From: Pseudooceanicola sp.
Lineage (GTDB): Bacteria > Pseudomonadota > Alphaproteobacteria > Rhodobacterales > Rhodobacteraceae
DNA length: 64,000 nt
Assembly: GCF_029213205.1 (NCBI RefSeq)
Contig: NZ_JARGNH010000004.1
Coordinates: forward strand, 1-64,000
Reading direction: 5' to 3'
Under the pieces are notes generated by a model that was not told the DNA's origin, did not search any database, and was given only the letters and a program-made list of their open reading frames with translations. Positions within the stretch are counted from its first letter, which is position 1, and each line of letters opens with the position of its first letter. Made by a program: the position numbers and the translations under genes. Below are positions 316 to 3,070 of this stretch, one piece after another.

Positions 316-987
316 ATGTCAGCACTTCGCAAACACTACATCGCCACTGAAATTCAGCAAAATTCCGGCGCAAGCCTGCTCGACGGCGACGCCGTTGAAA
401 TGTTCAGCTCGGGCTCCGCGCCCTCCGCATCCAGCAACGCCCTGACCGGCGACGTGACCGGCCTGTTCTCGTCAGGTTCCGCCCCCGTCGCATCCACTGT
501 CGCCCTGGCTGGTGAAGGCGTCGAGATGTTCTCCTCCGGCTCGGCTCCGGCGGCTTCGGTCACCGCGCTGATCGGCGAAGGCGTCGAAATGTTCTCTTCG
601 GGCTCCGCTCCGGTGAAAACCACCGCGGCCATCGAAGGCGACGCCGTGGAAATGTTCTCCTCGGGCTCCGCCCCGGTGAAAACCACTGCGGCCATCGAAG
701 GCGACGCGGTTGAGATGTTCTCTTCGGGTTCCGCTCCGGTGAAAACCACCGCGGCCATCGAAGGTGACGCGGTTGAGATGTTCTCTTCGGGTTCCGCTCC
801 GGTGAAAACCACCGCGGCCATCGAAGGTGACGCGGTTGAGATGTTCTCCTCGGGCTCCGCCCCGGTGAAAACCACCGCCGCCATCGAAGGCGACGCCGTG
901 GAAATGTTCTCCTCGGGTTCGGCTCCGAAAGCGGAAACCGCCGTCATTGAGGGCGACGCGACCCACATGTTCTCGTCGGGCTCGTAA
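316..987 (+). CDS. 223-aa protein of ten 21-residue FSSGSAP repeats
   Basis: I do not recognise a characterised family. Residues 1-23 (starting MSALRKHYIATEI) are unique; then come nine complete 21-residue units and a tenth cut short, each centred on VEMFSSGSAP. The first three units vary in the spacer (SASSNALT, VASTVALA, AASVTALI), five share VKTTAAIE, and the last full one has KAETAVIE. The protein stops immediately after the final FSSGS. There is no Cys, no signal peptide and no membrane segment. Start at 316 is chosen because GGAGAC at 305-310 precedes it; the frame is open further upstream without a ribosome site. Silent codon differences between units show the coding frame is maintained. 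It heads a three-gene run with an unknown protein and a DMT exporter. A multi-core secreted peptide precursor or a structural repeat protein are both possible; function is inferred, not shown. Confidence 0.85.
   Translation: MSALRKHYIATEIQQNSGASLLDGDAVEMFSSGSAPSASSNALTGDVTGLFSSGSAPVASTVALAGEGVEMFSSGSAPAASVTALIGEGVEMFSSGSAPVKTTAAIEGDAVEMFSSGSAPVKTTAAIEGDAVEMFSSGSAPVKTTAAIEGDAVEMFSSGSAPVKTTAAIEGDAVEMFSSGSAPVKTTAAIEGDAVEMFSSGSAPKAETAVIEGDATHMFSSGS
385..984 (+). repeat. 63-bp tandem repeat array inside the repeat-protein gene
   Basis: Nine full 63-bp units plus a 33-bp partial unit encode the 21-residue peptide repeat. Copies 708-770 and 771-833 are identical at every base, while outer copies differ mostly at third codon positions. 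This pattern suggests an old array under protein-level selection with a recent duplication in the centre, so copy number probably varies among strains. Confidence 0.9.
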
Positions 988-1052
988 GCCACGATCCTAG
1001 GTGCGGATGAGGGGGCGACAGGGTTCGCCGCTGGAAACAAGGAGATGATCCC

Positions 1053-2147
1053 ATGACCAACGTAGTTCAACTGTCCTTCCCATCCCGCGCCCGGAGCGAG
1101 GCCGACCGTCTGGCCGCCCTCACGGCAAGCTTCGCAGAGGACCGTCGCCTGGGTGACGATGTCTTCTGGCTGAAGGAAAACGCCGAATTGTTGAACATCC
1201 TGGAATGCACCGGCACGCAGCCTGACGAACAGGCCCTCGCGGTGCACCAGGAGTTCTACAACGGCATCGAAAAGCGCCTCAGCTTTTTCCCGCAATATTA
1301 TCGCTTTCTGCTGTCGATCTGCCTGGACCTCGAAGACCTGGGCATCGGCGGCGACAAGGGCGCGCGGCTCGTCGATTGGGCCGCGGATCAGGGGCTGGCC
1401 CGGGCCGAACTGTCGGATCTGCAACGCGCCGAAGCGCGCCGCCTGATGCTGCGTCGGGGCCGTGACCCTCTGCCCGAAGATGGCGGCCTGACCGATCGCC
1501 TGCATGGTTTCATCTCACGTTCAGCCACTTTCGCGATGCCGAACAAGAAGGCCGCCTATGAGCTGACCCATACGATTTTCTATCTCACCGAATATGGTCG
1601 AAAGTCATTGGATTTCGGTCTGGAAGCCGAAAAGAGCCTGACCTTTGCTGGCACGCTGGCCTATCTCGATCAGAACGCCGACCTGCTGGCCGAAATCTGC
1701 GTCGCGATGCGCTATGCCAATGTCATGCCACCGGCGATCTGGGACGATTGGCTGACCACTCACACTGCCAGCTTCGTCATTGCTGCTGACGATTGCGCCA
1801 CGCCGAGCCATGACGATTACCACGAATTCCTGGTCTGCAACTGGTCGCGTTCGATGGCCGGTGACAGGGCCTTTGCGCGTCCGGTCAGTTTTGGCCCGCT
1901 CAGCTTTCACGCCGCGCCGCGCCGCTCGGCACCGTTGCGCCAAATGTCACAGGCGATGCTCGACCTCGACAGCAGCCGCAGTGGTGATTGGGGCCGGATG
2001 CGCGGCTATGTTGCTGAAATGCTGAACGACGACGCGATGCTGGTCCTGCAAGAGGCCGAAGCCGCCTGCGCTGATTTCGATGCCTTCTTTGCCGGCTTTG
2101 CCCGCACCGGATTGCCAATGCCGATGCCGCTGCAGAGGCTGGCATGA
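1053..2147 (+). CDS. Unrecognised 364-aa protein, partner of the repeat protein
   Basis: I cannot name this family with confidence. The protein appears mostly alpha-helical and soluble, with no signal peptide or membrane segment. Features seen: an N-terminal VVQLSFPSRARSEADRL, a helical middle with LLSICLDLEDLG near residue 90, a distinctive AAYELTHTIFYLTEYG near residues 169-184, and DDCATPSHDDYHEFLVCNWS near 247-266 that is rich in D, H and C and could bind a metal or form an active site. The start has AAGGAG at 1039-1044 with good spacing. It sits 65 bases after the repeat gene and its stop overlaps the next start (ATGA), so all three genes are probably co-transcribed. A maturation or chaperone role for the repeat protein is inference from position only. 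Confidence 0.75.
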   Translation: MTNVVQLSFPSRARSEADRLAALTASFAEDRRLGDDVFWLKENAELLNILECTGTQPDEQALAVHQEFYNGIEKRLSFFPQYYRFLLSICLDLEDLGIGGDKGARLVDWAADQGLARAELSDLQRAEARRLMLRRGRDPLPEDGGLTDRLHGFISRSATFAMPNKKAAYELTHTIFYLTEYGRKSLDFGLEAEKSLTFAGTLAYLDQNADLLAEICVAMRYANVMPPAIWDDWLTTHTASFVIAADDCATPSHDDYHEFLVCNWSRSMAGDRAFARPVSFGPLSFHAAPRRSAPLRQMSQAMLDLDSSRSGDWGRMRGYVAEMLNDDAMLVLQEAEAACADFDAFFAGFARTGLPMPMPLQRLA

Positions 2148-3070
2148 GGGCGGGGCTCATGAAAAGCGCGGCGCTGAGCGGCACCTTGATGGTTCTGCTC
2201 TACACCGCGTTGATCTCGTCAGCCGACGCGATCACCAAGCTGTTGGCGGGCGCCTATGCCGCGCCGCAGCTTTATGTGGTTTCCGGTGGGCTGGTGGTGG
2301 CGATGAGCCTGGCCGCCGACCGGTTGAAAGGCGGCGGCTCAGGGGGCGGTCTGCGCACCCGCTGCCCGCGCGCCATGGCGATCCGCTCGGTGATGACAGT
2401 GGTGTCGGCGACCTGCTATTTCTATGCGTTCCGCCTGCTGCCCTTTGCCGAGGTCTTTGTTTTCATTGGGCTGGTTCCGCTGTTTGCCGGGTTGCTGTCC
2501 GGCCCGGTGCTGGGGGAACACCTGCGCCCGGCTGTCTGGTTTGCCCTGGCGGCGGGCTTTGTCGGGGTGCTGTGCCTGTTTCCCGAAGGGGTGGCGACCT
2601 TTGGCCCCGGCCATGCCATTGCTCTGGCGGCCAGTTTCTGCGGCACCCTGTCGATGATCATGGCGCGCTATATCGGCCGGTTCGAACAGAATGCCCTGGC
2701 GCAGGTGCTGTACCCGAATCTGGCGCTGGTCGCGGTGATGGCTTTGGCGCTGCCGTTCGTCTATGTGCCGATGCCGCTGGTCGATTTCGGTTGGGCGGCG
2801 GGCTACGCGACGGTGCTGTTTGCCGCTCGCTGGATCCTGGTGGTGGCACTGCGGCAGCTGGTCGCCTATGCGGTGACGCCGCTGATGAACCTGCAATTCG
2901 TCTGGATGGTGATCCTTGGTGCGGTGTTCTTTGGCGAAGTGCCGGGCGTGCATATCCTGCTCGGCGTCAGCATCGTGATCGCCTCGGGCGCCTATCTGAT
3001 CTATGATCGGGTGATGGCGGACCGGCGCCTGGTGACTGCGGTCAGAACCGGGATTGTTCCAGCGGAATAG
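2144..3070 (+). CDS. DMT-superfamily (EamA-type) transporter
   Basis: Inner-membrane carrier of the drug/metabolite transporter superfamily, about 308 residues with roughly ten hydrophobic segments, the usual size for two fused EamA halves. Visible segments include LMVLLYTALISSADAITKLL near the N-terminus, VVSATCYFYAFRLLPFAEVF and a C-terminal HILLGVSIVIASGAYLIYD. Members generally export small metabolites; the substrate cannot be read from sequence. Its ATG overlaps the stop of the preceding unknown gene, implying translational coupling, so it probably serves the same function as the repeat-protein cassette. An alternative start at 2159 would shorten it by five residues. Confidence 0.88.
   Translation: MRAGLMKSAALSGTLMVLLYTALISSADAITKLLAGAYAAPQLYVVSGGLVVAMSLAADRLKGGGSGGGLRTRCPRAMAIRSVMTVVSATCYFYAFRLLPFAEVFVFIGLVPLFAGLLSGPVLGEHLRPAVWFALAAGFVGVLCLFPEGVATFGPGHAIALAASFCGTLSMIMARYIGRFEQNALAQVLYPNLALVAVMALALPFVYVPMPLVDFGWAAGYATVLFAARWILVVALRQLVAYAVTPLMNLQFVWMVILGAVFFGEVPGVHILLGVSIVIASGAYLIYDRVMADRRLVTAVRTGIVPAE

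Follow-up and report, generated by a model that had tools for sequence, protein, structure and literature searches.

The window analysed here (64,000 nucleotides at the start of contig C51 of Pseudooceanicola sp., whose 3.69-Mb genome is assembled in 60 contigs) opens with a three-gene cassette: a gene for a repeat protein, a gene for a protein of the Pfam family DUF6902 and a gene for a transporter. The cassette is real and recurrent far beyond chance, because the same arrangement is found beside DUF6902 in more than 100 genomes. Judged from sequence, the first gene very likely belongs to a multi-core peptide system. With moderate confidence, the repeat protein is proposed to be a precursor with pentapeptide cores that are modified by the DUF6902 protein, giving a product that is probably exported and possibly acts as a species-specific signal. 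This proposal builds on a core that is repeated within each gene and kept uniform by selection, on the near-perfect linkage of the repeat gene to DUF6902 and on the homology of DUF6902 to a second family, DUF6895. No account of a DUF6902 repeat-precursor system was found in the open-access literature searched. The features of the cassette are as follows.

316–987, + strand: repeat precursor gene, 223 residues (23-residue N-terminus, then ten units at a 21-residue pitch, each with one FSSGS)
403–417, + strand: FSSGS core no. 1, precursor residues 30–34
970–984, + strand: FSSGS core no. 10, the precursor C-terminus
1053–2147, + strand: DUF6902 protein, 364 residues, probable core-modifying enzyme
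2144–3070, + strand: EamA/DMT-family transporter, 308 residues, probable exporter

The precursor ends in the residues THMFSSGS, followed by the stop codon, and Tandem Repeats Finder gives a 63-bp period for its gene. The DUF6902 and DMT genes share positions 2144–2147, of sequence ATGA. Both the repeat architecture ending at FSSGS and this overlap had been given correctly in a preliminary description of the DNA, which had also called the 364-residue protein unrecognised; it is instead a clear member of DUF6902 (PF21843, E = 1.3e-159, 531.3 bits against a cut-off of 27). The same description had noted the absence of radical-SAM, YcaO and LanM homologues, and none of the three cassette proteins has a Pfam or NCBIfam match to these, with the neighbouring genes judged by eye only. 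The precursor itself has Pfam matches at low E-values, of which DUF1048 and DUF2652 exceed their whole-protein cut-offs with no single stretch passing alone; we read its Pfam and NCBIfam matches as low-complexity chance.

The pentapeptide core

All repeats in one gene share nearly one pentapeptide, and this pentapeptide varies between species. The cores include FSSGS, FTSGS, FTSGL, FTSWS, FTTSM, FTSSL, FTSSM and FSSGA as well as FSTSC, FTTSC, FTCGL, FMSWS, STSSF, VSSTC, MTSVA, MPTSN and more, with 38 main core types among 160 distinct precursors. Among loci with species titles, Shimia litoralis has FTSGL, Marivita lacus FTTSC and Roseovarius litoreus FTSSI. Their common pattern is x-x-[S/T/C]-x-x: with no letter rule imposed, the third position is Ser, Thr or Cys in 38 of the 39 top 5-mers, the remaining one coming from a gene taken out of register. 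The main core occurs 2 to 20 times per gene (median 7). Precursors with two different repeated cores were noted at L042, L078, L167, L176, L177, L195, L200 and L034.

The uniformity of the core was measured by a within/between statistic on 581 units from 79 genes, anchored on G[DE], with the core not used and a few false units kept. This statistic is 0.96, 0.67, 0.87 and 0.90 at core positions 2, 3, 4 and 5, respectively, compared with 0.19–0.31 at most non-core positions and 0.46–0.51 for the two residues directly after the core. Core position 1 scores only 0.24 because it is Phe in most genes. In pairs of units from the same gene, a core residue differs in 2–8%, whereas identical residues at positions 2–5 use different codons in 45–55%. 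These silent differences at unchanged residues argue for selection rather than fresh duplication alone. The linkers drift and diverge more freely than the cores. Parsimony on a 110-row tree of DUF6902 requires at least 39 core changes, a figure that is approximate because the tree is a quick one with several long branches. One such change separates L013 from L015, for which the DUF6902 proteins are 94.8% identical and the linkers recognisably alike; the cores read FSSGS in six of six units in the former and FTSGS in seven of seven in the latter.

The spacing of the cores and the ends of the precursors bear on the size of a possible product. The gap between cores is mostly 15–16 residues and in 58 cases only 3 residues; a free peptide in those genes would therefore have at most about 8 residues if cut after core residue 5. 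The precursor C-terminus coincides with a core in 122 of the 160 precursors by script, or in 125 when three single-copy terminal cores are added by eye. As in a ribosomally synthesized and post-translationally modified peptide (RiPP), the repeat gene encodes a precursor with a recognisable core. Cyanobactins are also derived from multi-core RiPP precursors. For the microviridins, the excerpted text of PMC5934393 describes several cores per precursor with the modifying gene adjacent. The enzyme families of these multi-core systems differ from DUF6902, and the DUF6902-linked precursors are distinguished by a gene-uniform, species-variable core in up to 20 copies.

Linkage, homology and the proposed pathway

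A scan of named genomes returned 191 relatives of DUF6902, the best 80 of which were kept. Their titles name genera that we take to be of the roseobacter type, Rhodobacteraceae or Alphaproteobacteria. Among 390 Rhodobacterales genomes drawn evenly, a DUF6902 match is present in 108 (107 above the family cut-off) and in none of 14 controls. The DNA beside DUF6902 was examined in all 107 genomes, in batches of 30, 20 and 57 loci, and a repeat precursor lies immediately upstream in 106, one of them decayed. Weak members of this set are L113, with the motif MAQSFSAP in two copies only, L215, the partly masked L174 and L106, and L122. At L122, both the precursor and DUF6902 are broken, as if lost together. 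The converse search of the draw with the repeat protein matched 78 genomes, 77 of which also carry DUF6902; the regular occurrence of the repeat gene without its partners, named in the preliminary description as an outcome that would speak against a common system, was not seen. The match in the 78th genome, G289, is 30% identical and falls within an 874-residue frame. This match and two weak extra ones on other contigs of G204 were considered as DUF6902-free precursors and rejected, as they look like low-complexity chance. The gap between the precursor and DUF6902 gave no clear signal of a structured attenuator (mean z of −0.5 for 76 gaps, mononucleotide shuffles).

The linkage of the transporter is looser. 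In 60 of the 77 loci with enough DNA, DUF6902 is followed by a DMT gene of the same orientation, and the transporter is dispensable; 12 of the loci without it are titled Marivita. DMT homologues of at least 44% identity adjoin DUF6902 in 27 of 28 other genomes (196 searched), including G150, where the locus is degraded. The co-occurrence of all three genes, which the preliminary description had suggested checking, holds for the precursor beside DUF6902 and fails for the transporter at 17 of 77 loci. The new multi-core peptide system that it put forward is partly supported: the multi-core precursor, the FSSGS core, a probable modifier and a frequent DMT gene have support, and the transporter as a fixed part has less.

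The AlphaFold2 model of DUF6902, built from 76 aligned sequences, is all-helical (predicted local distance difference test score 93.9, predicted template-modelling score 0.91). Residues Tyr169, His173, Gly182, Asp210, Glu214 and His257 are present in 110 of 110 aligned rows and Tyr256 in 109. A sequence search of the PDB gave nothing credible (best E = 0.85), and no TPR family match at E ≤ 1 in Pfam and no regulator family match were obtained. DUF6902 is probably the modifier of the precursor cores. The window protein also matches DUF6895 (PF21836; E = 5e-23, 82.3 bits against a cut-off of 23.8), far under its DUF6902 score, and a profile–profile comparison with 11 DUF6895 proteins in hhalign gives a probability of 96.9 and an E-value of 1.3e-10. 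By these comparisons, DUF6902 is a distant homologue of DUF6895, which remains a separate Pfam family. The invariant residues of DUF6895 include Tyr183, His187, Gly196, Asp229, Glu233, Tyr291 and His292. The first five invariants of each family (Y-x3-H...G and D-x3-E) coincide within the hhalign block, and the Tyr-His pair, which lies outside this block, was paired by eye.

This homology bears on the chemistry. A title cited in the review PMC13352647 (ACS Catal. 2026, doi 10.1021/acscatal.5c08590) reports a DUF6895 protein as a lasso-peptide epimerase. The probable enzyme family DUF6902 is related to, yet distinct from, the family of that reported peptide epimerase, and the earlier statement that any chemistry would be new was too strong. 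Because the His/Asp/Glu set is shared with DUF6895, Cα epimerization is the best single guess for the DUF6902 reaction, albeit a tentative one. The restriction of core position 3 to Ser, Thr or Cys makes this residue a possible target, and it equally suits chemistry on a hydroxyl or thiol group.

Peptide-like genes also lie beside DUF6895. At six of ten DUF6895 loci examined, there are small upstream open reading frames (ORFs) that resemble one another.

L140, 5104–5703: small ORF at DUF6895 (L140 has two ORFs)
L141, 6437–6868, − strand: small ORF at DUF6895
L153, 5329–5685: small ORF at DUF6895
L154, 5348–5545: small ORF at DUF6895
L155, 5398–5658: small ORF at DUF6895
L159, 5519–5725: small ORF at DUF6895

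These ORFs come from Actinomycetota, Bacillota and Pseudomonadota and share a stretch like L-x2-[SA]-[GN]-[IL], often with an aromatic tail; unlike the DUF6902 precursors, they have no repeated Ser/Thr pentapeptides. Their E-values refer to a set of eight, in which L155 is linked weakly (0.008). They belong to no Pfam or NCBIfam family, with two chance-level Pfam matches, and are a candidate new precursor family. Their presence indicates that members of the DUF6902/DUF6895 superfamily tend to have peptide genes beside them. DUF6895 was found in 1 of 249 genomes from the taxonomic order of G493 and in 7 of 229 genomes from the class of G568; of these seven, only G568 was examined and six weaker ones were not. 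On Streptomyces plasmids (L156 and L158, the latter judged by eye and alignment), a tandem DUF6895 pair is accompanied by an ORF of 231 or 232 residues of no known kind, with no obvious precursor.

The proposed pathway would run as follows. The gene encodes 2–20 copies of one core, as the sequences across the family show. The all-helical DUF6902 protein would then act on every core, most likely by Cα chemistry such as L-to-D epimerization through its invariant His/Asp/Glu residues, possibly at the hydroxyl- or thiol-bearing third core residue, as homology and conservation suggest. Proteolysis might release peptides of about 5–8 residues ending at core residue 5, since precursors end at the core and some relatives have 3-residue spacers. 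The DMT carrier would usually export the product; secretion and processing of the precursor are what we infer from the genes. Because the cores are uniform within species and fast-changing between them, the product would probably be a species-specific signal, or else an antagonist with matched self-recognition. If this pathway is correct, a function would be assigned to a protein family common in roseobacters, the case for DUF6895 relatives as peptide-modifying enzymes would be stronger, at least 38 pentapeptides would form a natural substrate series for one enzyme family, and a group abundant in the sea would have a species-specific peptide language. The idea is directly testable because pentapeptides are easily synthesized.

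Alternative explanations

Several observations weigh against the proposed pathway. No peptide was observed. One of the 107 genomes, at L209, has DUF6902 without a precursor, and the precursor at L215 has two unlike cores, FVSGL and FCCSI. A second repeated core is found in 8 of the 160 precursors (for example, FSTSC plus FSSGS), and 35 of the 160 have no core at the C-terminus. The transporter is missing from the 17 loci given above, and G041 (L218) keeps a DMT gene near the same neighbours with neither precursor nor DUF6902. Inspection by eye, without a predictor, showed no signal peptide in the precursor, and a similar look through the 30 largest clusters of neighbours revealed no recognisable protease. 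Four of the ten DUF6895 loci (L156, compared by sequence, and L157, L158 and L160, judged by eye) showed no small ORF resembling those of the other six. The DUF6902 model has no PDB fold match at E ≤ 0.001 (best 0.2), and its structure is therefore no proof of an enzyme. MslH, the epimerase of the lasso peptide MS-271, is described in the excerpted source as having two His/Asp pairs, a ribosomal precursor as substrate, a calcineurin-like fold and Ca(II); that fold is not seen in DUF6902, which is modelled as all-helical. Finally, the epimerase link consists of distant homology and the one cited title.

These points leave room for other explanations. The repeat gene could encode a pentapeptide pheromone and DUF6902 its intracellular receptor, not an enzyme, as in the Rap-Phr (RRNPPA) systems. 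Rap proteins are TPR proteins, and the likeness lies in short multi-copy peptides and a helical protein encoded next to them. As excerpted, the literature on Rap-Phr describes short linear peptides, several tandem copies per Phr propeptide, occurrence in Bacillota and phages, and extracellular proteolysis. The pentapeptide cores, their species-specific turnover and the inclusion of TPR and other helical-repeat proteins among the weak PDB fold matches of DUF6902 (E of 0.2–2) agree with a receptor; we nevertheless judge it unlikely, since DUF6902 has no TPR or regulatory family match, inspection by eye shows no signal peptide and the invariant His/Asp/Glu set is common to DUF6902 and DUF6895. 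Moreover, the core switches between DUF6902 proteins that are 87–95% identical (L046/L057 and L013/L015), which is easier to reconcile with a tolerant enzyme than with a specific receptor. About as improbable is an intact, cytoplasmic repeat protein that serves as a multivalent scaffold, with cores that dock DUF6902 or another partner and co-evolve with one pocket. Such a scaffold predicts the same core uniformity within a gene, the same difference between species and near-perfect co-occurrence with DUF6902, yet it poorly explains the precursors that end exactly on a core (most of them), the linked transporter, the two-core precursors and the DUF6895 kin beside short precursor-like ORFs.

Two further explanations concern the core itself and the use of the product. 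The repeats might be those of an ordinary tandem-repeat protein, kept uniform by DNA duplication or conversion, with a functionless core. Some units were indeed recently duplicated, such as the middle units of the window precursor; however, about half of the pairs compared within a gene have silent codon differences in the core and few have residue differences, linkers diverge more freely, and flanks stay orthologous while every core switches, all of which makes this explanation very improbable. A bacteriocin-like antagonist, shaped by an arms race with self-protection, would leave the proposed pathway unchanged up to export and replace only the signal. Fast core turnover fits antagonism and signalling equally, but the 30 largest clusters of neighbours, inspected by eye and with no family-library scan, contained no recognisable immunity-like gene. 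Self-protection could also fall to DUF6902 or the DMT protein, and little credence is given to an antagonist here.

The region upstream of the precursor gene

Two elements lie ahead of the precursor gene in the window.

213–221, + strand: degenerate DnaA-box-like 9-mer TGTGGATTT, two mismatches, at −103 (an exact box is there in many relatives)
274–284, + strand: GTGCAAGCGTT element, 42 nt ahead of the precursor ATG

An exact TGTGGATAA or TTATCCACA is present upstream of the precursor in 48 of 77 loci from the scan of named genomes, and the two average 0.84 per 450 nt upstream compared with 0.002 elsewhere in the same loci. L013 is one of the loci with two boxes. According to the excerpted text of PMC8203912, TTATCCACA is the DnaA-box consensus. 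For the 67 loci with a divergent neighbour, 57 of 60 boxes fall into one of two intervals relative to the precursor ATG (−103 to −115 and −156 to −189), whereas their distance to the start of the neighbour spreads from 125 to 301; 56 of 61 boxes have the same orientation. The boxes were considered as a property of this neighbour (exonuclease-III-like by eye), an explanation rejected because the register is kept with the precursor ATG instead. L218, without the cassette, has no DnaA-like box. The closest relatives of the window, L002 and L003, have no exact box and the window copy is degenerate; putative DnaA control is therefore not universal.

A broader and rather doubtful extension of the proposed pathway is that these peptides form an undescribed Gram-negative pheromone class in which DUF6902, as a Cα-modifying enzyme with no counterpart fold in the PDB, introduces a D-residue or other change into each copy of a species-specific core and DnaA gates precursor expression in many species. 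DnaA-box promoters would then couple peptide output to replication, and the peptide would report chromosome replication or cell-cycle state.

The locus was also considered as a replication origin, an explanation rejected on the GC skew of G380, whose copy has two exact DnaA boxes. Across 20 stretches of 19 kb each, the skew is mostly positive from 0.23 to 1.91 Mb (two stretches are slightly negative) and negative in every stretch from 2.12 Mb onward, with no switch at the locus at 2.57 Mb.

The GTGCAAGCGTT element recurs in relatives: counting 0–2 mismatches, 51 of 79 genes have it in the 120 nt ahead of them, between about −36 and −65. Its 10-mer GTGCAAGCGT is exact in 24 of 78 upstream regions, compared with 3 for the top 10-mer of each shuffled set shown.

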